From assembly GCA_036491125.1 (NCBI GenBank), contig DASXCO010000158.1, forward strand, positions 1 to 53,305: a stretch of 53,305 nucleotides of DNA, given 5' to 3'. The notes below the pieces were generated by a model, which saw only the letters and a program-made list of their open reading frames with translations, was not told where the DNA came from and made no database searches. A program made the translations under genes and the position numbers. The stretch comes from Acidimicrobiales bacterium. GTDB lineage: Bacteria > Actinomycetota > Acidimicrobiia > Acidimicrobiales > AC-9. Of this stretch, positions 1 to 51,055 are shown piece after piece (within the stretch, counting starts at the first letter, position 1; each line of letters starts with the position of its first letter).

Positions 1-785
1 GCCTTCGTGCCTTCCCCATTGCCTTGACGAGCTCCGTCGCCGTGGCCTCCCAAGAAGACGGCCCGGGCGATGTCGTCGCGCTCGAGGAGCTCGGTGGCGG
101 CTCCCTCGAAGCGGATCTCGCCCTTTTCCATGAACACGGCCCGTTCGCAGATCTCACACGCGACACTCAGGCTCTGCTCGACGATGACCAGTGTGATGCC
201 GGCGTCTCGCAGGGACCGCACGATGGCCATGAGCTCCTTGACCACGACGGGGGCGAGGCCGAGGGACAGCTCGTCGATGCAGAGGACCTTGGGGTCGAGC
301 AGGAGCGCCTTGGCCAGGGCCAGCTGCTGCTGCTCACCTCCCGACAGGCTCCCTGCCCGCCTGCGGAGGTAGCGCTCGAGCACCGGGAAGGTCTCCAGCA
401 CCCGGGCTGTGCGGGCTCGCACCGTGGCCCGGTCCCGGTGGATGGGGAGGGCCTGAATGTCGAGGTTCTCCCGCACTGTCAGATCCGGAAAGATGGCGTG
501 GCCGCCGGAGATGAGGGCCAGGCCCCTCCCCACGAGGCGCTCCGCCGGTGTGGTGGTGATGTCGGCGCCCTCGAAGGTGATGGCCCCCGAGGACGGCGCC
601 TCGAGGCCGCAGAGGAGCCGCAGCAGGGTGGACTTCCCGGCCCCGTTGGTGCCGAGGAGGGCGAGGGCCTCGCCCTCTTCGACCTGGAGGGACACGTCGA
701 AGAGGACCTGGAGTCGGCCGTAGGAGAAGTTGACGCCATCGACGTCGATGATCGGTGCGATCGGTGCCGACAAGGCGTCGCTCAT
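1..785 (-). CDS. livF: Liv-type ABC transporter ATP-binding protein (LivF), 3' end outside window
   Basis: This is the ATPase subunit of a branched-chain-amino-acid-type (HAAT) importer, acting on the cytoplasmic face of the membrane. The 261 visible residues hold a Walker A motif GTNGAGKST at about 45-53, the signature LSGGEQQ at about 147-153 and a Walker B ending IDELSLGLAP at about 170-179. The LivF tail is nearly complete, but no stop codon is reached before the left edge, so the gene is partial. The ATG overlaps the stop of the upstream permease-ATPase fusion (ATGA), which implies translational coupling. Walker B reads DEL where DEP is usual, and the two other LivF-like domains in this window deviate at the same site. 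The family is clear. The transported substrate is unknown. Confidence 0.93.
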   Translation of the reverse strand, partial: MSDALSAPIAPIIDVDGVNFSYGRLQVLFDVSLQVEEGEALALLGTNGAGKSTLLRLLCGLEAPSSGAITFEGADITTTPAERLVGRGLALISGGHAIFPDLTVRENLDIQALPIHRDRATVRARTARVLETFPVLERYLRRRAGSLSGGEQQQLALAKALLLDPKVLCIDELSLGLAPVVVKELMAIVRSLRDAGITLVIVEQSLSVACEICERAVFMEKGEIRFEGAATELLERDDIARAVFLGGHGDGARQGNGEGTK

Positions 786-3613
786 CGGGCCCGGAGGGGT
801 CGGGCCCGCAGGGGCCGCTCTCGGACGGGCGGCGTCGGGGAGATGGGTGGGCTCGCCGGGGCCTCGTCGGTGCCCAGGTAGGACACGATCACCGCCGGGT
901 CGGCCCGGACCTCGTCCGGCGTGCCCTCAGAGATCACCCGACCCTGGTCCATGGCGTAGATGCGGTCGCACAAGCCCATCAGCAGGGGCATGTCGTGTTC
1001 GATGATGAGCACGGACAGACCCAGCTCGTCGCGGATGGATCGCAGCAGGGGGCCGAAGGCCTCCGCCTCACGCTGGGCCACCCCACCGGTGGGCTCGTCC
1101 AGCAACAACACCTTGGGCACCGAGGCGACCTGGGCAGCCAGGTCGCAGATCCTTCTGGTGCCGGTGGACAGCTCGTCGGTCAGCACGTCGGCCCAGGCGG
1201 TCAGGCCGAAGCGCTCGAGCAACGCCCACGCCGCCTTGCGGGACGATCCCTCTCCCGCCCGCACCCAGGGCGCCGAGGCGGCCGAGGAAAGGAGCCCGAC
1301 CCGGTGCTGGGTGCTCATGGCCACCTGCATGGTCTCGGTGACGGTGAGCCCGGGGAAGAGGGTGGCCTGCTGGAAGCTGCGCCCGAGGCCGAACGTCGCC
1401 CGCAGCTCGGGGGGAAAGTCGCCCACGTTCACCCCGGCCACTGCCACCGAGCCGCCGTCGGCGCGAAGCACGCCGGAGATCACGTTCAGCAGCGTGGTCT
1501 TGCCCGCCCCGTTGGGTCCGATCAGCCCGACGATCTCGCCCTCTCGTACCTCGATCGACGCCCCTTCGAGAGCTTGCTGTCCGCCAAAGGCAAGGCGCAT
1601 GTCCTCGACCGCCAGGGCTGGCGAATGGGCCGCGGCAGTGTCGCGCTCGGTCGTCTCGGCGACCATCGCATCCAGGCGGCCCTGCCACCACGACTGCACG
1701 GCGCCGGCGATCCCCTGGGGGAACTTCCGCAGGGCGAGGACCAGCCCCAGGCCACCGAAGAGCAGCTCGAAGCCGACACCTGAGCCCGCTGCGGAGCTGA
1801 AAAGGTCTGAGATCAAGGGGCTCAGCAAGAACGTCATTCCGTAGACGACGACCCCACCGGCCACCGCCCCGGCCACCGAGCCGATGCCGCCGATCACCAC
1901 CGCAGCAAGCACGGCGAGGGACAGGTCGGCCGGGAACTGTGTGGCGGAGACGTTGCGCCAGGCGTCGGCCCACAGGACCCCGGCCGAGCCGGCGAGGAAC
2001 CCCGAGACACACAGCGCCCCCATCTTGACGGTGGTGGGTGTCACCCGGAACGACGCAGCCCGGGCTTCGTCGTCTCGAACGGCGATGATGAGGCGGCCCG
2101 GTTGCGAGCGCCTGAGAGCCCACATCGCAGCCGCCGCGACCACGACCACGCCGAGGGCGACGTAGTAGACGGCGAGCTGTGACGAGGGGCTCCCCAAGCC
2201 GGCGGCCAGGCTCGGCTGCTGGAGGACAATCCCGAATGGTTGAGCCGACCCGAACCAGCCCTTGTGGAACAGCCAGTCAGGAGCGACGACGGCGAACCCG
2301 AGGGTGGTCACCGCCAACGTCAGGCCCGGCACCCGCAAGGCGGGCAGAGCGACCAGCCCCATCAGGGCCGCACCCACGAGACCGCAGACGATCAGCAGGA
2401 AGAGCACCGACCAGCCCCTCGGCATCAGGTGGGCGGCGACGAAGGCGCCGGCACCGACGAAGGCGAACTGGCCCAGGCTCACCTGGCCGGCCCAGCCGAT
2501 GGCAACGGTCAGCGAGAGTGAGACGACCGCGTAGGTGAGGACCAGGGCCAGGTCGAAGCGCGTTCCCTCGCTGTTGAAGATGGGAATCACCGGAAGGATG
2601 AGCCCCACGAACAGGGCTCCCGCCAGGAGGGTGCGCGGGGCGTAGCGGACGGTGAAACGGTCGCGGATGGCCTCGGGGATGCGCAGGGGCGGCCGGTCCT
2701 CGACGATGGCGCCCGCGGTGGCGAACACCCGTCCGATGGCGCCGCCGCGGATCAACACCATGGCGATGATGACCAGGAAGACGACGAGCTCCGAAGTCGC
2801 CGCGTTCGAGGTGAGGGCCAGTGCGATCTGCTGCGCCAGTCCGATCAGCAGTCCACCACAGAGGGCGGCAGGCAACGACGTGAACGCCCCGAGGGCGGCT
2901 GCCCCCAGGGCGAGCAGGAGCAGCTGTGGGCCGAGCACGGCCGCGGCGGAGCTACCGTTCGAGCCGAACGACGGGCTCTGGAGGATGGCGGCGATCGCCG
3001 AGAGGCCACCGGCGATGGCCCAGGTGATGGCGGAGACCCGGGCGGCGGACACGCCGGCAAGCCGGGCCGCATCGGGGTTGGAGGCGGCCGCCCGGATCAT
3101 GGTGCCGAGGAGAGTGAACCGGAGGAAGGCGGCCAGGCCGGCGACGATGAGGGGCCCCAGGACAAGGACCATGATGTCGGCGCCGCTCAGGATCACGCCC
3201 CCCACGTGGACACTGGCCTGGAACGGCAGCGGGTAGCCGGTGTACACCTCCTTCGAGCTGCTCGGGCCGAGGGCCGGGATGAGGGCGAGGGCCAGCAGGA
3301 CCTGGGTGACCCCGACCGTCACCAGCAGCAGCGAGACCGCGGACGCCGATCGGGCCCGCAGGGGCCGCACGACCCAGCGCTCGACCCCAAGGCCGACGAC
3401 GATCCCCACGGGCACGCACACCCCGAAGGCGACCCACCAGCTCCAGCCCCAGTCGATGACGAGCTTGGCGAGCAGCTGAGCAGACAACGCGCCCAGCTGG
3501 GCGTGAGCCAGGTTCAGGAAGCGGTTGGACTTGTAGACGAGGACGATGCCCACGGCCAGCAGCCCGGTCAGCGTGCCGTTGATCAGACCCAGTACGAGCG
3601 TGCCAGAGCTCAC
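782..3613 (-). CDS. LivH-LivM-LivG triple-fusion ABC importer protein
   Basis: One 943-residue chain joins three subunits that are usually separate. A LivH-like permease occupies about residues 1-300, a LivM-like permease about 325-640 and a LivG-like ATPase about 665-925. The permeases carry typical Liv sequences (VLVYKSNRFLNLAHAQLG near the N terminus, then GWAGQVSLGQFAFVGAGAF). The ATPase has Walker A GPNGAGKTT near 699, an unusual signature LSTGTRR near 815, and DEPTGGVAQRE where DEPxxGL is common. The start is GTG, preceded by GAAGGAG, and lies 16 bases after the binding-protein gene. The separate LivF gene overlaps the 3' end. One long open frame with recognisable junctions argues against a sequencing artefact. 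It should form an importer core with LivF and the anchored binding protein. Confidence 0.93.
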   Translation of the reverse strand: MSSGTLVLGLINGTLTGLLAVGIVLVYKSNRFLNLAHAQLGALSAQLLAKLVIDWGWSWWVAFGVCVPVGIVVGLGVERWVVRPLRARSASAVSLLLVTVGVTQVLLALALIPALGPSSSKEVYTGYPLPFQASVHVGGVILSGADIMVLVLGPLIVAGLAAFLRFTLLGTMIRAAASNPDAARLAGVSAARVSAITWAIAGGLSAIAAILQSPSFGSNGSSAAAVLGPQLLLLALGAAALGAFTSLPAALCGGLLIGLAQQIALALTSNAATSELVVFLVIIAMVLIRGGAIGRVFATAGAIVEDRPPLRIPEAIRDRFTVRYAPRTLLAGALFVGLILPVIPIFNSEGTRFDLALVLTYAVVSLSLTVAIGWAGQVSLGQFAFVGAGAFVAAHLMPRGWSVLFLLIVCGLVGAALMGLVALPALRVPGLTLAVTTLGFAVVAPDWLFHKGWFGSAQPFGIVLQQPSLAAGLGSPSSQLAVYYVALGVVVVAAAAMWALRRSQPGRLIIAVRDDEARAASFRVTPTTVKMGALCVSGFLAGSAGVLWADAWRNVSATQFPADLSLAVLAAVVIGGIGSVAGAVAGGVVVYGMTFLLSPLISDLFSSAAGSGVGFELLFGGLGLVLALRKFPQGIAGAVQSWWQGRLDAMVAETTERDTAAAHSPALAVEDMRLAFGGQQALEGASIEVREGEIVGLIGPNGAGKTTLLNVISGVLRADGGSVAVAGVNVGDFPPELRATFGLGRSFQQATLFPGLTVTETMQVAMSTQHRVGLLSSAASAPWVRAGEGSSRKAAWALLERFGLTAWADVLTDELSTGTRRICDLAAQVASVPKVLLLDEPTGGVAQREAEAFGPLLRSIRDELGLSVLIIEHDMPLLMGLCDRIYAMDQGRVISEGTPDEVRADPAVIVSYLGTDEAPASPPISPTPPVRERPLRARPLRAR

Positions 3614-6805: not shown

Positions 6806-7567
6806 TCAGGCCGGCGGTCGTGGTACTACGGCCACCGTTGGGATCGTGGCGCCGGCGCCGCACCGCAGCACGCTGTCGATCACTCGTAAGAGCTCGTCCA
6901 CGTCGAGCAGCGCGCCGCTGAGGAGGTTGCGAGCGAGCCATATGGGGAAGACCTCGGCCGCGACCTCCTCGTCCCAGTCGGCACTGAACTCCGTGGCCGA
7001 CGCCCCCTCCCCACCGGCGCAGTCGCCGACCGTGACCCGGGTGAAGCCGACGGCGGGATGCTCCGCTCGCCAAGCTTCGACCAGCTTGTCCAGGGCCGCC
7101 TTGCTGACGATGTAGGCGCCGAGGCCCGGCCACGGCGCCGTGATCGAGGCGCTCACCGAGGACAAGTAGGCGGCCACCCCCCGTGACGCCGAGAGGTGGG
7201 GGATCGCGGCGGCGGTGACAAGCGCGGCGCCGGTAACATTTGTGTCGAAGGCCCGCCGCCACGTGCCGGCATCGAGCTCGGCGAGCCGACCGAGGGGGCC
7301 GATGCCTGTCGCGTACACGAGGGCGTCGATCCCCCCCAACCCGCTCGCTGCCTGCTCGATCGCGTCGCGACACGACGCGTCGTCGGTAACGTCGCAAGCG
7401 ATCGCCAGCGCGCCGGGGCCGGCCTCCTTCGCGGTGTCGACGAGGCGGTCGTGCCGCCGGGCAAGGAGCGCCACCGTGGCTCCGCGCTGCGCGAGTCCGA
7501 TGCCGATGCAGCGGCCGAGGCCGCTCGATGCGCCGACGACAACGGTCCTCAACGGTGCAGTGGCCAT
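6806..7567 (-). CDS. Short-chain dehydrogenase/reductase (SDR)
   Basis: A 253-residue classical-SDR-like oxidoreductase, cytoplasmic and NAD(P)-dependent. The nucleotide-binding motif is VGASSGLGR (about 11-19), with a conserved Asn in DTNVTG at 110, Ser at about 137 (YLSSVSAS), and the catalytic Tyr152 and Lys156 in AYIVSK. The ATG at 7567 starts the canonical beta-strand MATAPLRTVVVGASSG; upstream in-frame sequence is not SDR-like. It is transcribed away from the LLM oxidoreductase gene, sharing a 158-base control region with it, and probably acts on an alcohol or ketone intermediate of the same pathway. The substrate cannot be assigned. Confidence 0.88.
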   Translation of the reverse strand: MATAPLRTVVVGASSGLGRCIGIGLAQRGATVALLARRHDRLVDTAKEAGPGALAIACDVTDDASCRDAIEQAASGLGGIDALVYATGIGPLGRLAELDAGTWRRAFDTNVTGAALVTAAAIPHLSASRGVAAYLSSVSASITAPWPGLGAYIVSKAALDKLVEAWRAEHPAVGFTRVTVGDCAGGEGASATEFSADWDEEVAAEVFPIWLARNLLSGALLDVDELLRVIDSVLRCGAGATIPTVAVVPRPPA

Positions 7568-31126: not shown

Positions 31127-33172
31127 ATGCTCGAGTACGTCCTAGTCGGGCTGGCGCTTGGATCGATCTATGCGATCGCGTCGGCCGGGCTGGTGGTTAC
31201 GTACGCGTCGTCAGGGGTCCTGAACCTCGCCTTCGGATCGATGGCCTATGTGGTGGCCCGGTTCTACTACTTCCTCAACTCCCAGCACGGGTGGCCCACC
31301 GTGACGGCGGGGTTGGTGTCTCTCCTGATCGTGGCGCCGCTCATGGGCGTGGTCCTCTACGCCGTTCTCTTCCGTTTCATCCGGGGTCAGTCAACCTTGA
31401 TAAAGCTGGTCACCACGATCGGGCTCTCCGTGGCGCTGCCACCGATTGCAGACCTCACTCTCGGGACCCAATCCATCACGTCGGCGCCGGGCCTCGCCTT
31501 GGCCAGCGACCGCCCGTTTCATCTCCTGGGCGCCCCCATCACGACGGACCAGATCATCACCTATGGGTTCTTGCTCTTCGTCGTGGTGGCAGGCATCGCT
31601 GTGTTGCGGTTGACCGATGTGGGTCTGCGGGTTCGTGCAACCGTCGACTCAGAAGCGATGGCGTCGCTCTCGGGGACCAACCCTCGGCGGGTCGCCCTCG
31701 GGGTGTGGGCGGTCAGCGCGACGCTGGCGGGCTTGGCGGGGATCCTCGTAGCCCCCACCAACGGCTTGACGACCACCGGGATGACGGCGTTGATGGCGGC
31801 GGCGTTCGCAGCCGTGGTCGCTGCCCGCTTTCGCTCCCTCTCTGTTGCGGTCGGCGTCTCGCTCGCCATGGGAGTGGTGACCGACGTGATCCTGAAGCAG
31901 CTCCCGCAGGGCAGCTCACTCACGGCGGCGATCATTCCGAGCATCCCATTTGGGTTCATCCTGCTGTTCTTGATCTTCTACATCGTGAGGTCCGGCGCGG
32001 TGGATGAGGACGTGGGCACCGGAGGTCCCCTGGATCATGCCGTTCGACCCGCCAACGAGGCTCTGGCCAATGTGGGCAGAGCGGTTGCGAGCGGACGCGG
32101 CAGGGGTGTCGCGCTCGGCGCGGTCCCGCTGGTGGTGGTGGCGCTGTTGCCGTTCGTGTTCCAAGGTTCTGCCTACTGGCTGGGGTTGGTGGCACTGGGT
32201 CTCTGCTATGCGATCACCTTCCTCACATTCACGCTGGTGACCGGAGAGGGAGGGATGCTGTGGCTCTCGCAGATCATCTTCGCCGGCGCTGGCGCATTGG
32301 GCGCGGCGCAATTCGTCTCCGTGTGGCACGTGCCGGTGCTCTTGGCGCTCGTCCTCGGTGGGTTGATCGCGGCCGTCGTGGGGGCCATCATCGGCTTGCT
32401 CACCATCCGCCTCGGTGACCTGTATGTGGCCCTGGTCACCTTGACCTTCGGGCTCCTGGCCGAGACGCTCGTCTTTTCCCGCGGCCGGTTCCTGCAGGGT
32501 GGTATCGGGGTCGTGTTCAACCGCCCGGGCTTCGCCAGTGATGACCTGACCTTCGCGTACCTGGCACTCGCCGTCTTCGCCGTCTTCGCCGTGCTCACCT
32601 TGAACCTGCGCCGCTCGACCAGCGGGCTGGCCTTACGGGCTGTGCGGGACAGCAAGTCCGCGTCGCGGACCTCTGGCCTGAGCGTGCTCCAGGTGAAAGT
32701 CATCGTCGGGGCGGTGGCGGCATTCGTGGCCGCGGTCGGAGGTGGCTTCATCGCGATGTACGGCGGGGTCGCCCAGCCTGGGTCCTTTGCCACGTTCACG
32801 GGGCTGGTCTGGCTCGCGGTCGTGGTGACAATGGGTGTTCGGTCCATCACCGCGGCGGCGCTGAGCGGGCTGGCGTTTGCGTTGCTCCCCGGCGTGTTCC
32901 AGACCTACGTTCCGAGCCGCTGGGGGGAGGTGCCTGCGCTTCTCTTCGGGTTGGGTGCGGTCATGGTCGCACGACATCCCGAAGGCGTGGTCCTCCACAA
33001 CGGGAGACAGTTGCGTCTGCTGTTGTCGCGGCTCGGGTCGCGGGCGAGGTCGCCAGAGGTGAGTCGCTCGGCGGCGGGCGGCACGATCCTGGTCGGTGAC
33101 TCGGATGGCAGCCTCGCCCAGACCGGGGTGGCGCCCGACGGATCCGGCACGAGCGCGGGGGCACCACGATGA
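31127..33172 (+). CDS. LivH-LivM fused permease of Liv operon C
   Basis: A 681-residue double permease. A LivH-like half (about 1-290, with ASAGLVVTYASSGVLNLAFGSMAYV) is followed by a loop of about 35 residues and a LivM-like half (about 325-640, with EGGMLWLSQIIFAGAGALGAAQ and GLALRAVRDSKSASRTSGLS). Each half is built from hydrophobic helices as in the HAAT family. The C-terminal 40 residues are hydrophilic and face the cytoplasm. The stop overlaps the start of the ATPase gene (ATGA). It should form the channel for the ligand bound by the lipoprotein encoded at 34903. The ligand is unknown. Confidence 0.93.
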   Translation: MLEYVLVGLALGSIYAIASAGLVVTYASSGVLNLAFGSMAYVVARFYYFLNSQHGWPTVTAGLVSLLIVAPLMGVVLYAVLFRFIRGQSTLIKLVTTIGLSVALPPIADLTLGTQSITSAPGLALASDRPFHLLGAPITTDQIITYGFLLFVVVAGIAVLRLTDVGLRVRATVDSEAMASLSGTNPRRVALGVWAVSATLAGLAGILVAPTNGLTTTGMTALMAAAFAAVVAARFRSLSVAVGVSLAMGVVTDVILKQLPQGSSLTAAIIPSIPFGFILLFLIFYIVRSGAVDEDVGTGGPLDHAVRPANEALANVGRAVASGRGRGVALGAVPLVVVALLPFVFQGSAYWLGLVALGLCYAITFLTFTLVTGEGGMLWLSQIIFAGAGALGAAQFVSVWHVPVLLALVLGGLIAAVVGAIIGLLTIRLGDLYVALVTLTFGLLAETLVFSRGRFLQGGIGVVFNRPGFASDDLTFAYLALAVFAVFAVLTLNLRRSTSGLALRAVRDSKSASRTSGLSVLQVKVIVGAVAAFVAAVGGGFIAMYGGVAQPGSFATFTGLVWLAVVVTMGVRSITAAALSGLAFALLPGVFQTYVPSRWGEVPALLFGLGAVMVARHPEGVVLHNGRQLRLLLSRLGSRARSPEVSRSAAGGTILVGDSDGSLAQTGVAPDGSGTSAGAPR

Positions 33173-34830
33173 TAGGTGGTCCCGGAAATGGAGCGATGGA
33201 GGGCCCCAGCTCCATGTCAGGACGAGGGTCGCAGGGCCAACCACGCCTGGCCTGCGTCGGGATCACCGTGCGCTTTGGCGGTCTCGCCGCAGTGAGCAAT
33301 GTCGACCTGGCCGTGCCACCGGCGGCGATCGTGGGATTGGTCGGGCCGAACGGTGCGGGGAAGAGCACCCTGTTCGCAGTGCTCTCGGGTTTGCTGCAAC
33401 CAACACGGGGCACGGTGCTGCTGGACGGCAGGGACGTCACCGGCAGCCGGCCCCAGCTGCGCGCCTTTCGGGGATTGGCTCGCACCTTCCAGCATCCCGA
33501 GCTGTTCACCGACCTGACGGTGCGTGAACATCTGGTGATCGCCTATCGGGCCAAGCACGCCAGAGGCCGGATCTGGTCAGACCTGCTCACCATGGGGAGC
33601 CTGCGTCCGGCCGAGCCGGACGAGCAGAGCTGCGTCGACGAGTTGATCGGGATGCTCGGCTTGGCCTCAGTCGCCGACCTCCCTGCGCTCGGCTTGCCCC
33701 TCGGGTTGGCTCGGATGCTCGAGTTGGGCCGGGCCTTGGCCTCGTCGCCGACGGTGGTGCTCCTGGATGAGCCCTCCGCGGGCCTCGACTCCTCCGAGAC
33801 CGAGCAGTTCGAGGCCACGCTACGAGAGGTCAGTCGCCAGCGGGCCATCGCGGTGCTGCTCGTGGAGCACGACGTCGAGCTGGTGATGCGTCTGTGCAGC
33901 ACCGTGCATGTCCTCGACTTCGGCGTGTCGATCGCCAGCGGCTCACCCGAGTCGGTCAGCGCCAACCCAGCCGTTCGGGCTGCGTATCTGGGTGAGGAGC
34001 TCTCAGATGGTGAGGCCCAGGAGGGCACCGACGGGGCGGCCTCCGCCGGCGCCGTGCGCTCGGCCCCCACGACGGGTAGCTCCACGGAGACCTCCGATGG
34101 CGTTCAGCCGTCGTCGCTTCTCACCGTCGAGGGCCTCTCGGTGCGATACGGGGAGGCCAGCGGTCTCTCTGGGGTGTCGTTCAGTGTCGGAGGGGGCAAG
34201 GCGCTTGCCGTCTTGGGCGCCAACGGTGCGGGAAAGAGCAGCCTGGCCCGTGCCGTCTCCGGACTGGTTCGTCCGTCCGGCGGACGGATCGTCCTCGCTG
34301 GTGAGGAGATAGGTGGTTGGACGCCTGATCGCATCCGCCGTGCCGGACTGGTGTACCTGCCGGAGAGCCGAGGCGTGTTCCGGAGCCTGACGGTGATGGA
34401 GAACCTTCGGATGGCCGCTGCCCTCGAGGGCCGCCGAGCGCGCCGAGAGGCGGTCGATCGCGCCTTGGAGATGTTTCCTGCGCTGGCGGCCCGCCGGCGT
34501 CAGCCGGCCTGTCTTCTCTCCGGGGGCGAGCAGCAGATGCTGTCCTTGGCCCGGGCCTTGGCTGCCTTCCCGCGGGTGCTGATCGCCGACGAGATGTCCC
34601 TCGGCCTGGCTCCCAAGATGGTCGACCTCGTCTTCGACGGTCTGGCGCGAGCCAGACAGGCAGGCGTGACGCTGATCATGATCGAGCAGTACGTCCATCG
34701 TGCACTGGCATTCGCCGACGATTGCCTGGTGCTCCAGCGTGGCGAACTGGCGTGGAACGGACCAGCCAGCGCGGCGCACGGCGAGGTGCTCCGTCACTAT
34801 CTGGGCGACACCCTCATGACGGCCGGCTGA
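33169..34830 (+). CDS. LivG-LivF fused ATPase of Liv operon C
   Basis: A 553-residue tandem ABC ATPase powering the fused permease. The first domain (about 25-265, LivG-like) has Walker A GPNGAGKST near 59, a degenerate signature LPLGLAR where LSxGxxR is expected, and LLDEPSAGLD. The second (about 315-550, LivF-like) has Walker A GANGAGKSS near 350, a canonical LLSGGEQQM and a Walker B region IADEMSLGLAP. A Ser/Thr/Gly-rich linker (about 275-312) joins them. The ATG overlaps the permease stop. The nearby internal ATG codons at 33196 and 33214 are alternatives. Pairing one canonical and one degenerate signature suggests unequal ATP sites. Confidence 0.93.
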   Translation: MIGGPGNGAMEGPSSMSGRGSQGQPRLACVGITVRFGGLAAVSNVDLAVPPAAIVGLVGPNGAGKSTLFAVLSGLLQPTRGTVLLDGRDVTGSRPQLRAFRGLARTFQHPELFTDLTVREHLVIAYRAKHARGRIWSDLLTMGSLRPAEPDEQSCVDELIGMLGLASVADLPALGLPLGLARMLELGRALASSPTVVLLDEPSAGLDSSETEQFEATLREVSRQRAIAVLLVEHDVELVMRLCSTVHVLDFGVSIASGSPESVSANPAVRAAYLGEELSDGEAQEGTDGAASAGAVRSAPTTGSSTETSDGVQPSSLLTVEGLSVRYGEASGLSGVSFSVGGGKALAVLGANGAGKSSLARAVSGLVRPSGGRIVLAGEEIGGWTPDRIRRAGLVYLPESRGVFRSLTVMENLRMAAALEGRRARREAVDRALEMFPALAARRRQPACLLSGGEQQMLSLARALAAFPRVLIADEMSLGLAPKMVDLVFDGLARARQAGVTLIMIEQYVHRALAFADDCLVLQRGELAWNGPASAAHGEVLRHYLGDTLMTAG

Positions 34831-34902: not shown

Positions 34903-36138
34903 ATGCGCAACAACAAGGTGAAACTGTCGGCTGCCGCCGTGGCCGTCGTACTCATGGTGGCTGCAGGCTGCAGCTCGTCGAGCACGAGCGGATCGAGCTC
35001 GGGCGGGGGCGGCAAGACGTTCACGGTCGGCGTGCTCACCGATCTCACCGGTCCCGCCGCGTCGGGGAACAAGACGAGCCCCCAGGGAGTCCAAGCAGGA
35101 GCGGTGTACGCCTCGAAACAGGGCTACACCATCAAGTACGTGACCGCCGACACCATGACCTCCCCGTCAACTGCGCTGTCGGCGGCACAGAAGCTCGTGC
35201 AGCAGAACCACGTCATCGCCGTGATCGCAGTCTCCTCCCTGGCCTTCTCCGCCGCCCCCTTCTTGACGGCCCAGGGGGTCCCCGTCATCGGCGTGGCCGA
35301 GGACGGGCCTGAATGGGTCAGCAGCAAGAACATGTTCTCTACGTTCGGGTTCCTGGACCCGTCGATTGTCACGACCACCTACGGTCAGTACTTCAAGATG
35401 CAGGGCGCCACGAATGTGGGCGCGCTCGGCTACAGCATCTCGCCGTCCTCGGCCGAATCGGCCAAGGGTGCGGCGGTCTCGGCCCAGGCGCTCGGGCTCA
35501 AGGCCGGCTATGTCAACGCCAACTTCCCCTTCGGCAGCACCAACGTCGAACCGGTTGCCTTGGCGATGAAGTCGGCGGGGGTGGACGGGGTCACTGCCTC
35601 CGCCGACCCCAACACCAACTTCGCCCTGATCACCGCGCTCAGGCAGTCAGGCGCCAACCCGAAGGTCGGGGTGTTCGCCACCGGTTACGGCGGCGACCTC
35701 CAGCAGGCCGGCCCCACGGCCCAGCAGGTAGCGCAAAACCTCTCCTTCCTCTTGGCCTGGGAGCCGATCGAGCTGCACACCTCGGCTACCGACCAGTTCC
35801 AAAGCGCCGCCAAGAGCGCCGGCATCACAGGCGACCCGACCTATGCCGAGTACGCGGGGTACACCTCGATCGCCATGCTCGTCCAGGGCCTGCAGGGCGC
35901 CGGCTCGAACCCGAGCCAGTCGTCGCTGATCAATTCCCTCTCTCACATCACCAGCTTCAACGCCGCTGGGCTGCTGGGGAGCCATCCGCTCAACCTCACT
36001 CAGCGAGTCGGCACCCTGGGACCCGACAACTGCTACTGGTTCACGAAGTACAGCGGGTCCACGTTCCAGCCGGTCTCCGGAGCCGTCCCGCTCTGCGGCA
36101 CCGTCGTCCAGGGCCAGAGGGTCTCCCCGTCATCTTGA
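34903..36138 (+). CDS. Liv-type substrate-binding lipoprotein of operon C
   Basis: A 411-residue solute-binding protein with a classical lipoprotein signal: MRNNKVKLSAAAVAVVLMVAAGC, lipobox AAGC with Cys23, then a Ser/Gly-rich tether. The mature part is a type I binding fold (FTVGVLTDLTGPAASGNKTS, PQGVQAGAVYASKQG) like HAAT receptors. It lies 72 bases after the ATPase gene, and GGAGAGAGA precedes the ATG. It is anchored outside the membrane and delivers ligand to the fused permease. It contrasts with the binding proteins of operons A and B, which carry N-terminal helices instead of a lipobox. Confidence 0.92.
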   Translation: MRNNKVKLSAAAVAVVLMVAAGCSSSSTSGSSSGGGGKTFTVGVLTDLTGPAASGNKTSPQGVQAGAVYASKQGYTIKYVTADTMTSPSTALSAAQKLVQQNHVIAVIAVSSLAFSAAPFLTAQGVPVIGVAEDGPEWVSSKNMFSTFGFLDPSIVTTTYGQYFKMQGATNVGALGYSISPSSAESAKGAAVSAQALGLKAGYVNANFPFGSTNVEPVALAMKSAGVDGVTASADPNTNFALITALRQSGANPKVGVFATGYGGDLQQAGPTAQQVAQNLSFLLAWEPIELHTSATDQFQSAAKSAGITGDPTYAEYAGYTSIAMLVQGLQGAGSNPSQSSLINSLSHITSFNAAGLLGSHPLNLTQRVGTLGPDNCYWFTKYSGSTFQPVSGAVPLCGTVVQGQRVSPSS

Positions 36139-43824: not shown

Positions 43825-43942
43825 CATAGTGCTGCTACGGTCCGGCGCCGAGTGTGCTGGGGATCGCGAGATCTGAACAGATTGACCGTTGGATCGTCCG
43901 GGAAACGGCCGTCGCTGGAGTGGCCGTGCGGAAGGGGGCCTG

Positions 43943-45388
43943 ATGACGTCACTCCGCCGGATGCGGTCGTACCGCCGGACGATGCTCGGAGTGTTGAGTA
44001 CGGGCGCCGTGGTCGGGGCCCAGGTCCTCTGGTGGCCGGTCCACGGCGCAGGGGCCCAAGCGCCGCAGGGGTTCGTGCTCGGGACCGCCAACGCCACGGC
44101 CCAGGCCATCCAGCTGGCGCCGAGCACCGGCGGCCTCAGCTACAGCGTGACGCTGGCCGAGTCGTTGGCCGGCTACCAGAGCACTGAGGGACAGGGCCAG
44201 TCCCAGACCTTCGATCCCGGGGCCATCGGTATCTCGTTGACCACCCAGCAATGCAACGGAGATCCACCGCCGGTCCAGCAGTCCCAGATGCCCCAGCCTG
44301 CACTGGCCGAGTCCAACGACGGCGACGCCTCCCAGTCCAAGACCGTGCAAGGCAGCAACGGCGCCGGTGTGGGCGTCGAGAACGCGTCAGCCAAGACAAC
44401 ACCGGCGGGCTCGGCCAAGACGACGCTGGTGGGCCTGGACGTTCCCGGGGTCATCGACGTGTCGGGTGGGACCTCGACCGCGCAGGCCCAGGCGATCGCC
44501 AACAAGACCCGGGAGGCGACGGCGTCCTCGGAGATCGGCCAGGTCTCGCTGCTCGGTGGCCGGGTGACCCTGGACGGTCTCCAGTGGCGGAGCACCCAGC
44601 GCAGCGGCGACGGGTCCACTCAGCAGGGCAGCTTCACCATCGGGAGCCTGACCCTCGACGGCAAGTCCATGCCGGTCACCCCGGGCCAGATCCTCTCGTC
44701 GCTCGATCAGGTGAACCAGGCACTGGCTCCCACCGGGTTCCACATCACGCCGCCGACGGCGACCAACCAGAGCGACGGGAGTGTGCTCGAGAGCCCCTTG
44801 TCGATCGGGATCGACGCCTCAGCGCTGGGTCAGCAGGTCCTGGGTCCTGGTCTCGCCGCCGCCCAGCCGGTGCGTGACGCCATCGCCAAGGCTCTCCTGC
44901 AGATCGACTGCCGGACATCCATCCCCCTCCTGCTCGCCGACATCGCCGTCGGCCCATTTGCCGGGGGCGGTGGCCTCGACATCAAACTGGGCGGAGCGAC
45001 CTCGATCACCGACGGCACCGCCTACGCCAACCCCTTTGCGGTCGACCTCGGTGGGGGCTCGCTCGGCGCCAGCACGCCGGGCGACGCGTCAGGCGGTGCG
45101 GGTGGGACGACGGGAGCGGGAGCAGCGGGAGGCTCCTTGGCATCGCCGGGGTCGGCCCTGGCCGGACAGACGCCGTCGGCCGCAGGCAGCCCGTCCGGGA
45201 GCACCGGGCGTGGAGCTCCGGGCGTCGCGTCGCTCGGAGCGGTCACCAACGCGTCCAGCAGGACCGGCACCGGAGCTGCCCTACCGGTCGGACTGGGCGC
45301 GCTGGCGCTCGTGGTCACCCTCGCCGGGATGGACTACGCCCGGGCCCGGCGCGCTCGCCTGTTGGGCAGTGGGAGCTCGGAGTCGTGA
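43943..45388 (+). CDS. Secreted, C-terminally membrane-anchored protein leading Liv operon B
   Basis: I do not recognise the family of this 481-residue protein. It has a long basic signal peptide (MTSLRRMRSYRRTMLG, then a hydrophobic core, cleavage likely after AGAQA near 39). An ordered region of about 320 residues is rich in Ser, Thr, Gln and Gly (GTANATAQAIQLAPSTGGLSYSVTLAES). A Gly/Ala/Ser linker (about 370-440) leads to a C-terminal helix (about 447-465) with a positive stop RARRARLLG. This is a type I membrane topology with the main domain outside. GGAAGGGGG precedes the ATG. Its stop overlaps the GTG of the binding-protein gene, so it is a fixed member of the operon. Its role is unknown. 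Confidence 0.82.
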   Translation: MTSLRRMRSYRRTMLGVLSTGAVVGAQVLWWPVHGAGAQAPQGFVLGTANATAQAIQLAPSTGGLSYSVTLAESLAGYQSTEGQGQSQTFDPGAIGISLTTQQCNGDPPPVQQSQMPQPALAESNDGDASQSKTVQGSNGAGVGVENASAKTTPAGSAKTTLVGLDVPGVIDVSGGTSTAQAQAIANKTREATASSEIGQVSLLGGRVTLDGLQWRSTQRSGDGSTQQGSFTIGSLTLDGKSMPVTPGQILSSLDQVNQALAPTGFHITPPTATNQSDGSVLESPLSIGIDASALGQQVLGPGLAAAQPVRDAIAKALLQIDCRTSIPLLLADIAVGPFAGGGGLDIKLGGATSITDGTAYANPFAVDLGGGSLGASTPGDASGGAGGTTGAGAAGGSLASPGSALAGQTPSAAGSPSGSTGRGAPGVASLGAVTNASSRTGTGAALPVGLGALALVVTLAGMDYARARRARLLGSGSSES

Positions 45389-47082
45389 GGCCGGTCGAAT
45401 CCAACCCGACGAGCGCCAAGATCCGCCTCCCGGTGTCGGCCGCCAACGGTCGGCTCCTCAAGGGCTACGGGCCCCTCGTCGCCCTGCTCGTGGCCTTCGT
45501 GCTCATGGCCACCATGGTGCCGACCGCTCACCAGCTGGCCGGCTCCGGGTCGGGCTCGGGCGGGTTGTCGGCCGGGAGCGCTGGGGGCAGTGGCGGTGCC
45601 ACCGCGGGCACCGCGGGCACCGCCGGTGGCTCGGCGGGCTCGGCGGCGGGGTCAGGCGTCGCCGCAGGCGGGCCGGGGGGTAGCGGGACGACGAACGGCG
45701 GCCCGGCCACGGGTCATACGGTGTCCTGCCCGGGTCGCCAGGTGCAGGGTGATCCCTACGCTCCGCCGTGCACCCAGTTCTCGGGCGGCAACGGTGGTGC
45801 CACTTCGATGGGCGTCACCGGCGACACGATCAACGTCTCCTACCGGGTCACCAACGATCCCGGCTTCCAGCAGGCGCTGGCCAGTGTGGGTGGGGCGCAG
45901 CTGACCGATTCCCCCCAGGACATCCAGCGGACGATCCAGGGGCTGACCGACTACTTCAACACCCACTTCCAGTTCTACGGACGCAAGATCAAGGTCACGC
46001 CCTACAACGGGCAGGGAAGCCAGACCAACGAGCTGTTGGGCCAGGGCCAGGACAAGGCCAACGCCGATGCCATCACCGTCGGCCAGCAGATGCACTCCTT
46101 CGCCGAGCTCAACGGCACCACCGAGCCATACGCCGACTCCCTGGCCAAACAGCACGTCATCGCCTTGGGCGTGCCCTACCTGTCCCAGCAGTGGATGGCC
46201 CAGCGGTCGCCCTACGCCTGGAGCATCCTCACCGAGTGCAACGACGTGGTCGACACGACCACCGAGTTCCTTGACAAAGAGCTGGCCGGCCAGCCCGCCC
46301 AGTTCGCTGGCCAGGGCCTGCAGGGCAAGCCCCGCAAGTACGCCATCATCGCTCCCGACAACCCCTGGTACCAGGACTGTGCCAACGAGGCGATCAAGAT
46401 CGCCGGTCAGCACGGCAACCAGACCACAGACGACATCCAGTACCAGCTCAACCTGTCGACGCTGTCCAACCAGGCCGCCTCGGTGATCTCCAAGCTGTCC
46501 AACGACGGGGTCACCACCATCTTCTGCGGCTGCGACCCGGTGTTCCCGGTCTACCTCACCTCACGGGCCCGCGAGCAGGGCTACAACCCCGAGTGGGTCG
46601 TAGCCGGCGTGGCCCTGACCGACACCGACATCGTGGGCCAGCTGTTCGACCAGAGCCAGTGGACGCATGCCTTCGGGGTCAGCTACGCGGGGGCCACCCT
46701 GCCCAAGCAGGCCACCCTTGGTTACAACGCCTACAAGGCGGTGCGACCGGACGAGCCCGCCAACGCCGTCGACCTCATCTACGCCCAGATGTACATGCTC
46801 GCCATCGGCATCCAGATGGCGGGGCCAAACCTCAGCCCCCAGAGCTTCGAGCAGGGTATGTGGGCCTACCCGGGCAGCATCCCCGGAGCGCCCAACGCGG
46901 AGTTCGGGACCTGGCTCATGCCCCAGGGCCACTTCACCCCCCAGATCGACTCCCAGATCATCTACTGGGACCCCAACAAGATCTCGACCTACAACAGCAA
47001 GAAGGGCGCCTACGTCGTGGCCAGCCCCCGCTACCGCTCGGGGCAGTACCCCAGCGGTCCCCCCCACGTGTTCGGCCACTGA
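45385..47082 (+). CDS. Membrane-anchored Liv-type substrate-binding protein of operon B
   Basis: A 565-residue binding protein. A short basic N terminus precedes a hydrophobic helix (about 29-46, GPLVALLVAFVLMATMVP) with no lipobox. About 65 residues of Gly/Ser/Ala linker follow, then a Cys-containing segment (TVSCPGRQVQGDPYAPPC) and a type I binding fold (MGVTGDTINVSYRVTNDPGF to the end). It resembles the binding protein of operon A in layout but is not a close copy. It starts at GTG 45385, overlapping the previous stop (GTGA), and is followed 10 bases later by the fused transporter gene. The helix is probably uncleaved, which would keep the receptor tethered near the permease. The ligand is unknown. 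Confidence 0.88.
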   Translation: MRPVESNPTSAKIRLPVSAANGRLLKGYGPLVALLVAFVLMATMVPTAHQLAGSGSGSGGLSAGSAGGSGGATAGTAGTAGGSAGSAAGSGVAAGGPGGSGTTNGGPATGHTVSCPGRQVQGDPYAPPCTQFSGGNGGATSMGVTGDTINVSYRVTNDPGFQQALASVGGAQLTDSPQDIQRTIQGLTDYFNTHFQFYGRKIKVTPYNGQGSQTNELLGQGQDKANADAITVGQQMHSFAELNGTTEPYADSLAKQHVIALGVPYLSQQWMAQRSPYAWSILTECNDVVDTTTEFLDKELAGQPAQFAGQGLQGKPRKYAIIAPDNPWYQDCANEAIKIAGQHGNQTTDDIQYQLNLSTLSNQAASVISKLSNDGVTTIFCGCDPVFPVYLTSRAREQGYNPEWVVAGVALTDTDIVGQLFDQSQWTHAFGVSYAGATLPKQATLGYNAYKAVRPDEPANAVDLIYAQMYMLAIGIQMAGPNLSPQSFEQGMWAYPGSIPGAPNAEFGTWLMPQGHFTPQIDSQIIYWDPNKISTYNSKKGAYVVASPRYRSGQYPSGPPHVFGH

Positions 47083-47092
47083 CGGGCAGATC

Positions 47093-50000
47093 ATGAAGAT
47101 GCCCTCGATGACCGCGCTGTCGCGCCGCCAGGTCCTGGCGCTGCTCGTGGTACCGGCGGTGATGATCCTCCTGCTCGTCTCCCAGAGCCTGCCCCATGTC
47201 GCACCGCCCGGGGTCCTGCTCCAGGGCGCCGAGCTGGGAGCCGTCAACGGCCTTCTGGCCCTGGGGCTGGTGTTGATCTACCGCTCGAGTCGGATCATCA
47301 ACTTCGCCTACGGGGCCATGGGAGGGGTGGCGGGGACCTTCGCCATCATGCTCGATCTGGGCGCCCATGTGAACTGGTTCCTCTGCCTCCTGGCCGGGCT
47401 GCTCGTGGGCGCGGTGGTCGGCGCTGCGGTCGAGATCCTCGTCGTCCGTCGCTTCTTCAATGCCCCCCGCCTCGTGCTCACCGTGGCCACCATCGGCCTG
47501 GCCCAGATCCTTGGTGGGATTCAGCTCCTCCTCCCCGGGTGGCTGCACGGCCCCACTCTCGTGGGTGGGTTCTCGACTCCGCTCTCGGGTGCGCACGTCC
47601 GGATCCACCCGGTCATCTTCACCGGCGACGACGCGCTCGTCATCGCCGTCGTGCCCCTCGTCCTGGCCGGCCTCGGCTGGTTCCTCCTCCGGACCGACGC
47701 CGGGGTGGCCGTGCGGGCGGTGCCCGACAACTCCGAGCGGGCTCTCCTGCTCGGCATACCCGTGCGTCGCCTGTCGACCCTGGTGTGGGTCGTCGCGGGG
47801 GTGCTGGCTGCCCTGACCGTGATGGTCAACGGACCTTCCCAGGGTGTGACGCTCTCGGCGGCGGCAGGACCGACCCTGCTCCTGCCCGCCCTGGCAGCCG
47901 CCGTGGTGGCCCGAATGGAGTCCTTGCCCATCGCCTTCGGGGCCGGCGTCGGCCTCGGGATCATCGACTCGATCACCCGGTTCAACATCACCAAGCAGTC
48001 CGCCAGCGACGTCGCCTTCCTCGTGGTCATCCTCGCCGCGCTCCTCATCCAGCGGGGGCGCTCGAGCCGAGCCGAGGACACCGAGGGTTCCTGGATGGCC
48101 ACCGGGATCATGCGGCCCATCCCCGAGGCGCTGCGCCGCCTTCCCGAGGTGGTGGCCGGCCGGGTGCTGCTGGGTAGCGTGCTCGCTGGCGCCCTGCTGC
48201 TGGTGCCGTTCGCCTTCGGGCCGGGAACGGTCAACGAGTTCACGATCGCGGTCATCTACGGCATCGTCGTCATCTCTCTGGTCGTGCTGTCGGGGTGGGC
48301 GGGCAACATCAGCCTTGGCCAGTTTGCTTTCGCCGGGATCGGTGGCGTGGTCACGGGCGACCTGATCTCGCATTGGAACGTCGACTTCTTCCTCTGCCTG
48401 ATTGCTGCCGGTGCATCAGGGGCGCTGTTGGCAGTCTTGGTCGGCCTGCCCGCGCTGCGGATCCGGGGCCTGCTCCTCCCCGTCACCACCCTCGCCTTTG
48501 CCGTCGCCCTGGACTCGTTCTTCCTCAATCCCACCAACTTCGAGTCGCTCATCCCGTCCAGCTTCGTTCGTCCGTTCCTCTGGAAGCGGTTCGATCTGCA
48601 GAACGTCAACGACTACTACTACTTCTGCCTCGCCATCCTCGTCCTTGCCATCGTCTGCGTCGTGAGCCTGCGAGCCGCCAGGGCCGGCCGGGTGCTGTTG
48701 GCGACTCGCGACAACCAGCGCGCCGCCTCCGCCATGGCCGTGCCCACCACTCGGGTGAAGATGGTGGCCTTTGTCCTCGCCGGCGCCATCGCCGGTGTGG
48801 CGGGCGGGCTCCACGCCAGCGCCCTCGGGAGCGTCGGCTTCCACACCTATGATCCCTCGATCAGCCTGTTGCTGTTCTCGATGGCGGTCATCGGCGGCCT
48901 GGGCTCGATCAGCGGTGCGCTGCTGGGGGTGGCGACCATCGAGGTCGCTGTCCACGCCTTCCCCCAGTACCAGCTGATCATCACCGGGGCCGGTCTGCTG
49001 TGGCTTCTCCTCATCCTCCCAGGGGGGCTGGGTGAGGGTCTCCAGCGGGTCCGCAACCGAGTGCTCCGTCGCATCGCCGCCAGTCACAACCTGATCGTGC
49101 CCACGCTGGTGGCGGACCGCTTGGATGACGCTTCCTCGCCGGAGGCGTCACAGGCGCCCCCTCGCGAAGACGCCCTCCTCGCCGGCGCCCTGTCGTCGGG
49201 CGATGTCGGTAGCACGCCCTCGGTCGAGACCGACGAGCTGGCGCTGGTGGGCGACGGGCATCCCCACGTCGAGACTGCTCGGCCAGACGAGGAAGACGAG
49301 GGCCCCCCACCCCTCCTGCGCTGCCGCCAGGTCGAGGTCTCCTATGGATCGGTGCAGATCCTGTTCGGCGCCGACCTCGAGGTCGCCGAGGGTGAGATCG
49401 TCGCCCTGCTCGGCACCAACGGGGCGGGCAAGTCGACCCTCCTCAAGGGGGCGGCCGGACTCGTGAAGGTGGGGGGCGGGTCCGTCGAGCTCGATGGGCA
49501 GGCCATCACCAACACCCCTGCCGACGCCGCCGCCCGCCTCGGCATGGCCCTCATGCCCGGCGGCCGGGGCGTGTTCCCGACGCTGACCGTCGATGAGAAC
49601 CTCCGGCTGGCTGCCTGGCTGCTGCGCAAGGACCGGACCGCGGTGGCGGAAGCTCGCCGGGATGCTCTCGCCGTGTTCCCGATGTTGGACGATCGGATCG
49701 GCCAGATGGCCGGCAACCTGTCGGGTGGCGAGCAGCAGATGCTCTCCCTGGCCATGGCGTTCATGGTCAAGCCCCGGTTGCTCATGATCGACGAGCTCTC
49801 CCTCGGGCTCGCCCCGACGGTCGTGAGCCAGCTGCTCGACGTCGTGCGCGAGCTCCATGCCCGGGGGACGACGATCGTCGTCGTCGAGCAGTCGGTCAAC
49901 CTTGCTCTCGAGCTGGCCGAGCGGGCTGTGTTCCTGGAGAAGGGCGAGGTGCGCTTCACCGGCCCCGCCGCCGACCTGCTGGATCGCCCCGACATTCTCC

Positions 50001-51055
50001 GATCGGTGTTCATCGCCGGGGGGAAGCCCGCCATCACGCCCACGGCGCGCAGCCGGCCACGCACCGACGGCGAGGAGGCCCGCGTCTCGCCCAGCGACGA
50101 CGCCGCCGCCGTGCTCGAGTGCCGCGGTGTGACCAAGTACTTCGGCGGCATCCAAGCGGTGGCCGGCGTCGACCTGTCCCTTCGAGAAGGCGAGATCCTT
50201 GGCCTTATCGGCCACAACGGCGCCGGCAAGACGACCCTGTTCGACCTGATCTCGGGCTTCCTGGCCCACGATCGGGGTCGGATCCTCCTCGGGGGCATGG
50301 ACATCGGCTTCTGGCCATCACACCTGCGGGCCGTCGCCGGCCTCGGCCGCTCCTTCCAGGAGGCGCGCCTGTTCCCGTCGCTCACGGTGACCGAGACCAT
50401 TGCCGTCGCCCTCGAGCGTCACCTCGAGTCGCGCGACTTGGTCGCCGCCGCCCTCCAGTTGCCCGCATCGACCGACTCCGAGGCCCGGGCGGCAGTTCGG
50501 GTCGAGGAGCTGGTCGCCACGATGGGCCTCGGGTCCTTCCGGGAGAAGCTGGTGGGGGAGCTCTCCACCGGCACCAGGCGGATCGTCGAGCTGGCCTGCG
50601 TCCTGGCTCAGGATCCTGCCGTCGTGCTGCTCGACGAGCCCTCGGGCGGGGTGGCCCAGCGCGAGACCGAGGCACTCGGTCCCCTCCTCCTGCGGGTTCA
50701 GCGGCACTCGGGTTGCTCGATACTGGTGATCGAGCACGATATGCCGCTGATCACCGCGATCTGTGATCGGGTGATCGCCCTCGAGCTGGGTGGCGTCATC
50801 GCCGGCGGCACGCCCACCGAGGTGATGGAGCACCCACTGGTCGTCGCCTCCTATCTGGGCACCGACCAGAGCTCGATCCACCGCTCAGGCACGCGATCGC
50901 GGCCCCTCACGGCGAGGGCGACCGGTCCGGCTCCGGCTGCGACCGCTGAAAACGGCCCTCCGGGCGCGCTCGAGAATGTCGCCGCTCCGGTGGATGGGCA
51001 GGATGACGACGACCTGGCCCGCACCCGCTCGGCCCGTACCCGCTCGGGCGACTGA
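47093..51055 (+). CDS. Single-chain Liv-type ABC importer core (LivH-LivM-LivF-LivG fusion)
   Basis: A 1320-residue protein carrying the whole membrane and motor part of an importer. In order it has a LivH-like permease (about 10-320, VLIYRSSRIINFAYGAMGG) and a LivM-like permease (about 345-665, SGWAGNISLGQFAFAGIGG). A LivF-like ATPase (about 740-985) follows, with Walker A GTNGAGKST near 774, LSGGEQQ near 876 and IDELSLGLAP near 899. A LivG-like ATPase (about 1003-1262) is last, with GHNGAGKTT near 1040, LSTGTRR near 1157 and LLDEPSGGVAQRE near 1180. Acidic and Ser/Pro linkers join the domains, and a polar tail ends the chain. MKMPSMTALSRR at 47093 is the first plausible start; upstream frame is antisense-like. 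Only the binding protein is encoded separately. Confidence 0.94.
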   Translation: MKMPSMTALSRRQVLALLVVPAVMILLLVSQSLPHVAPPGVLLQGAELGAVNGLLALGLVLIYRSSRIINFAYGAMGGVAGTFAIMLDLGAHVNWFLCLLAGLLVGAVVGAAVEILVVRRFFNAPRLVLTVATIGLAQILGGIQLLLPGWLHGPTLVGGFSTPLSGAHVRIHPVIFTGDDALVIAVVPLVLAGLGWFLLRTDAGVAVRAVPDNSERALLLGIPVRRLSTLVWVVAGVLAALTVMVNGPSQGVTLSAAAGPTLLLPALAAAVVARMESLPIAFGAGVGLGIIDSITRFNITKQSASDVAFLVVILAALLIQRGRSSRAEDTEGSWMATGIMRPIPEALRRLPEVVAGRVLLGSVLAGALLLVPFAFGPGTVNEFTIAVIYGIVVISLVVLSGWAGNISLGQFAFAGIGGVVTGDLISHWNVDFFLCLIAAGASGALLAVLVGLPALRIRGLLLPVTTLAFAVALDSFFLNPTNFESLIPSSFVRPFLWKRFDLQNVNDYYYFCLAILVLAIVCVVSLRAARAGRVLLATRDNQRAASAMAVPTTRVKMVAFVLAGAIAGVAGGLHASALGSVGFHTYDPSISLLLFSMAVIGGLGSISGALLGVATIEVAVHAFPQYQLIITGAGLLWLLLILPGGLGEGLQRVRNRVLRRIAASHNLIVPTLVADRLDDASSPEASQAPPREDALLAGALSSGDVGSTPSVETDELALVGDGHPHVETARPDEEDEGPPPLLRCRQVEVSYGSVQILFGADLEVAEGEIVALLGTNGAGKSTLLKGAAGLVKVGGGSVELDGQAITNTPADAAARLGMALMPGGRGVFPTLTVDENLRLAAWLLRKDRTAVAEARRDALAVFPMLDDRIGQMAGNLSGGEQQMLSLAMAFMVKPRLLMIDELSLGLAPTVVSQLLDVVRELHARGTTIVVVEQSVNLALELAERAVFLEKGEVRFTGPAADLLDRPDILRSVFIAGGKPAITPTARSRPRTDGEEARVSPSDDAAAVLECRGVTKYFGGIQAVAGVDLSLREGEILGLIGHNGAGKTTLFDLISGFLAHDRGRILLGGMDIGFWPSHLRAVAGLGRSFQEARLFPSLTVTETIAVALERHLESRDLVAAALQLPASTDSEARAAVRVEELVATMGLGSFREKLVGELSTGTRRIVELACVLAQDPAVVLLDEPSGGVAQRETEALGPLLLRVQRHSGCSILVIEHDMPLITAICDRVIALELGGVIAGGTPTEVMEHPLVVASYLGTDQSSIHRSGTRSRPLTARATGPAPAATAENGPPGALENVAAPVDGQDDDDLARTRSARTRSGD

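Follow-up and report, generated by a model that had tools for sequence, protein, structure and literature searches.

Among described transporters, those closest to the system reported here are the LivKHMGF importers of the HAAT family (TC 3.A.1.4), in which two BPD_transp_2 permeases, a LivF- and a LivG-type ATPase and a Peripla_BP_6 binding protein together mediate uptake. Full-length eukaryotic exporters, the other obvious point of reference for a one-chain protein, mostly follow the order TMD-NBD-TMD-NBD or its reverse; an earlier note on this DNA took TMD-TMD-NBD-NBD to be typical of them, which is wrong. Two ATPase domains also share one chain in RbsA- and DppD-type proteins, whose permeases are separate proteins, and a survey of Bacillus subtilis noted that fused ATPases alone are relatively rare in prokaryotes (PMC11466899). 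The open-access literature searched yielded neither a one-chain Liv importer nor an MFS-ABC fusion. The earlier note was right that such a layout is unusual for an importer. The parts of the system described below are all known; their assembly into one chain is a new variant.

The window, the whole 53,305-nucleotide stretch of Acidimicrobiales DNA that was analysed, encodes on its forward strand, at positions 47093–51055, a chain of 1320 codons that translates without a break to a single terminal stop. The mechanical open reading frame extends back to 46667; because that extension overlaps the upstream binding-protein gene, which ends at 47082, the ATG at 47093 is a sensible start for the chain. 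Translation and Pfam upheld what had been claimed from the letters, namely a complete Liv-type core in one 1320-residue chain, at these coordinates and in the order H-M-F-G, and the layout was further supported by domain mapping in relatives and by an AlphaFold2 model. Two stretches of the chain match BPD_transp_2 (PF02653, E 9e-50) and another two match ABC_tran (PF00005, E 8e-57), while BCA_ABC_TP_C, the Liv-type ATPase tail, falls slightly below its cut-off (24.7 versus 25.5 bits). The LivH-like permease domain spans approximately residues 31–330 (47183–48082) and the LivM-like domain approximately residues 351–668 (48143–49096; PF02653 stretch 383–621), both assigned also by domain BLAST in relatives and from the model, in which the former shows its helices. 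A disordered M-F linker (residues 676–730; 49118–49282) leads to the LivF-like ATPase domain (approximately residues 736–973; 49298–50011), whose nearest solved ATPase is PDB 1ji0 (E 1.5e-56), and a second disordered linker (974–995; 50012–50077) leads to the LivG-like domain (approximately 1001–1265; 50093–50887; PF00005 stretch 1025–1184), which matched LptB/LivG-type ATPases in a PDB search. The C-terminal tail that follows (50888–51052) has no domain recognised by Pfam and is short in most relatives. At the level of equivalog models, the chain scores below cut-off for LivF (240.6 versus 441 bits), LivG (279.1 versus 362) and UrtD (285.6 versus 304.1), the last from the urea importer UrtABCDE; its score for UrtE exceeds the cut-off (297.7 versus 285.8 bits), but this whole-protein score sums both ATPases.

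Both ATPase domains carry the full sets of Walker A, signature and Walker B motifs that the first reading of the sequence had picked out. In the F domain these are GTNGAGKST (residues 774–782), LSGGEQQ (876–882) and LLMIDE (896–901), and the switch position, within residues 929–936, reads EQ in place of His. The G domain has GHNGAGKTT (1040–1048), a Q-loop SFQ (within 1087–1094), the unusual signature LSTGTRR (1157–1163; window positions 50561–50581), VVLLDE (1177–1182) and a switch His (within 1212–1219). Across 49 aligned single chains, the Walker, catalytic Glu, G-domain Q-loop and switch-His residues are invariant, and the F-domain switch position is Gln, not His, in every one. Loss of the His at this position is usual for LivF. 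Most single-chain members have LSTGT rather than LSGGQ as the G-domain signature, with the Gln and His of that domain kept. Compared with LivKHMGF systems, then, the chain differs in uniting all four core domains, in placing F before G, in its LSTGT signature and in an F-domain Q-loop region that reads GGR, where other LivF proteins of the same genome mostly read EGR.

The chain follows two genes on the same strand, in an apparent operon that opens with a gene for a choice-of-anchor P family surface protein (43889–45388; 499 aa from the mechanical start; NCBIfam NF040603, 39.1 bits, cut-off 27) and continues, after a 4-bp overlap, with a binding-protein gene (45385–47082; 565 aa). The binding protein has a long low-complexity N-terminal region and gave no Pfam match at full length; with the N-terminus trimmed, it matched PF13458 at 43.7 bits against a cut-off of 31.7. 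Modelled separately by AlphaFold2 (pLDDT 93, pTM 0.91), it found Liv-type binding proteins as its best PDB matches, with Z scores of about 25 (25.9 to 3eaf). Since this neighbouring gene matches Peripla_BP_6 both by family and by its Liv-type fold, the chain has a binding protein of its own. At 17 further loci, most of them in the clade to which the window's chain belongs, a homologue of the choice-of-anchor P protein is likewise encoded beside this binding protein. The surface protein may help to hold or feed the binding protein; its alignment found no relative in the PDB. The ligands of the solved structures matching the binding protein are amino acids, aromatic acids, urea or amides. A branched-chain amino acid and a carboxylate or hydrophobic compound are equally likely as substrate. 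Genes for acyl-CoA dehydrogenase, acyl-CoA ligase, GMC oxidoreductase and aldehyde dehydrogenase recur near the loci of relatives, but their frequency in these genomes generally is high, and they were for that reason not used to name the substrate.

AlphaFold2, run on residues 38–1237 with 49 relatives, folded the chain confidently (pLDDT 87, pTM 0.87), with long stretches of pLDDT below 50 only in the M-F linker and at or beside the F-G linker. Contacts between domains were judged from pTM and Foldseek. The best structural match of the model is DppD, the fused ATPase pair in the ATP-bound form of the mycobacterial dipeptide importer DppABCD (TM 0.70 by target), which is in line with a predicted pairing of F and G within the chain. 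As pLDDT and pTM alone may miss errors in predicted ABC transporters (PMC11466899), confidence in the fold is taken as support rather than proof. Two BPD_transp_2 permease domains, two ABC ATPases with complete motifs and a Liv-type binding protein encoded alongside thus point to a complete Liv-type (HAAT) importer core formed as one polypeptide, a reading that we regard as very likely. In the mechanism proposed, the H and M permease domains would form the membrane channel, and the F and G ATPase domains, held on flexible linkers, would pair with each other beneath it, while the Liv-type binding protein, encoded by its own gene and held at the surface, would deliver substrate for inward transport. 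One chain would constitute the whole core, with a stoichiometry fixed at 1:1:1:1. Because the switch His is replaced by Gln in F, and G combines the LSTGT signature with an intact Gln and His, the two ATP sites would be unequal: a canonical one, made of the G Walker A/B motifs and the F signature, and a weakened one, made of the F Walker A/B motifs without the switch His and the LSTGT signature of G. If the importer does act as one chain, it would permit one ATP site, one permease half or one linker to be altered by point mutation without mixed assemblies, a standing difficulty in four-subunit importers.

How far the layout extends was surveyed in genomes of the order and in further genomes beyond it by mapping domains on open frames and by domain BLAST, mostly in draft or metagenome assemblies. 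The survey recovered 51 single-frame H-M-F-G loci (the window included) in 41 genomes. The order accounts for 37 of these, out of 148 sampled; three more belong to the same class but to different orders, and the last, genome G182, comes from a different class of the phylum and encodes a single chain of 1248 aa (locus L165). Strong relatives are held by 70 of the 148 genomes of the order, and nine other genomes searched gave no close relative. Of the 50 other single-chain loci, 48 were aligned, at 42–70% identity. These independent loci refute the proposal that an assembly or sequencing error deleted a stop between two genes. The source genome is a 251-contig draft, which leaves room for such errors, but the same layout recurs in the 50 other loci, including one on a single-contig chromosome of 4.66 Mb (L073, genome G139) and several near-relative pairs, so that we regard an error as exceedingly improbable. 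With an identical domain order, H-M-F-G, in a single frame at so many loci, the frame is not a product of chance, and it is confirmed as genuine rather than a sequencing artefact.

A genuine frame might still yield separate subunits, either through an internal start in the linker that produces F-G or through a protease that cuts the disordered M-F linker. The length (about 55–70 residues) and predicted disorder of that linker would suit such processing, as would the frequency of a two-gene form among close relatives. Internal starts in the linkers, however, are not conserved across the fused loci and are absent from the window: a start scan there, covering the 45 codons that precede each ATPase domain, found neither an in-frame ATG nor an in-frame start with a Shine-Dalgarno-like sequence, and an ATG with a Shine-Dalgarno-like sequence precedes F in only 5 of the 51 loci. 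We consider this outcome unlikely, and an exporter or signalling ATPase in place of an importer more unlikely still. The most familiar ABC proteins with four domains in one chain are exporters, but the Liv-type binding-protein gene lies immediately upstream of the chain, and binding-protein genes adjoin most of its relatives. A full-length exporter of the ABCB/ABCC type was rejected on the TMD-TMD-NBD-NBD order, the BPD_transp_2 identity of the membrane domains and a TM of only about 0.2–0.3 between the chain model and P-glycoprotein.

The one-polypeptide importer core belongs to a subfamily that has two further layouts. In one, HM and FG are separate genes, which in nearly every case share a 4-bp [AG]TGA overlap; in the other, HM is accompanied by an FG chain that carries an MFS domain (PF07690) at its N-terminus. 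The latter relatives share with the single chain the subfamily, the F-before-G order and, in most cases, a binding-protein gene, but differ in having two genes and in the MFS domain. All members of the subfamily, those with two genes included, place F before G, whereas all other liv sets mapped in the same genome place G before F. The earlier note was therefore right that the ATPase order of the chain departs from that of other liv sets, but the order is not specific to the fusion; judged from its presence in every member, it characterises the subfamily as a whole and is older than the single-chain form.

In a tree built from all four domains, the single-chain, HM + FG and HM + MFS-FG layouts are interleaved, although one group of 30 rows in the first tree is purely single-chain. 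Placing all single-chain rows in one clade was rejected (log-likelihood 705 lower, p-AU 8e-7) under the fast LG+G4 model and a quick search, with an AU test that is sensitive to long branches, and well supported branches force at least five changes of layout. With layouts interleaved and a single clade rejected, the M-F join was made or broken repeatedly, changing state several times, although the tree does not distinguish fusions from fissions. Where two genes overlap by 4 bp, the step is short in either direction: the likeliest origin of the single chain is that the short stop/start overlap between the HM and FG genes was lost, and the reverse change, from chain to two genes, is possible. 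A broader scenario is more speculative and, in our estimate, rather doubtful as a whole: that Acidimicrobiia, and one or more neighbouring classes, evolved one-polypeptide Liv importers several times and kept them, with a fixed stoichiometry and two unequal ATPase domains bound to pair with each other, and that sister lineages joined the ATPase pair to an MFS domain, giving an uptake machine that combines ABC and MFS parts. Comparison of the interleaved one-gene and two-gene relatives provides a natural test of the effects of covalent fusion. The one-chain importer is also a caution for annotation pipelines in which just one domain gives a protein of this kind its name.

The window's own genome also holds an HM + MFS-FG set, on contig C110 (L134:1183–4404 and L134:4401–6311, both on the reverse strand). 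There, as in loci L129 and L136–L141, the F-G pair lies behind a complete MFS domain, and an H-M permease gene adjoins these loci, with a binding-protein gene beside it in most. An MFS domain joined to Liv-type ATPases, as these sequences appear to encode, is odd. Two further liv sets within the window are likewise partial fusions of the same four domains but differ in having two or three domains per chain and G before F: one consists of an HMG chain (782–3613; 943 aa) and a separate F (3–785), and the other of HM (31127–33172; 681 aa) and GF (33169–34830; 553 aa) with a Peripla_BP_6 protein (34903–36138). Between them, positions 7528–30759 hold a likely catabolic cluster with genes for a luciferase-like monooxygenase, two acyl-CoA ligases, amidohydrolases, an enoyl-CoA hydratase, acyl-CoA dehydrogenases, a CoA-transferase III, a Rieske ring-hydroxylating oxygenase and an Abhydrolase_10 protein.
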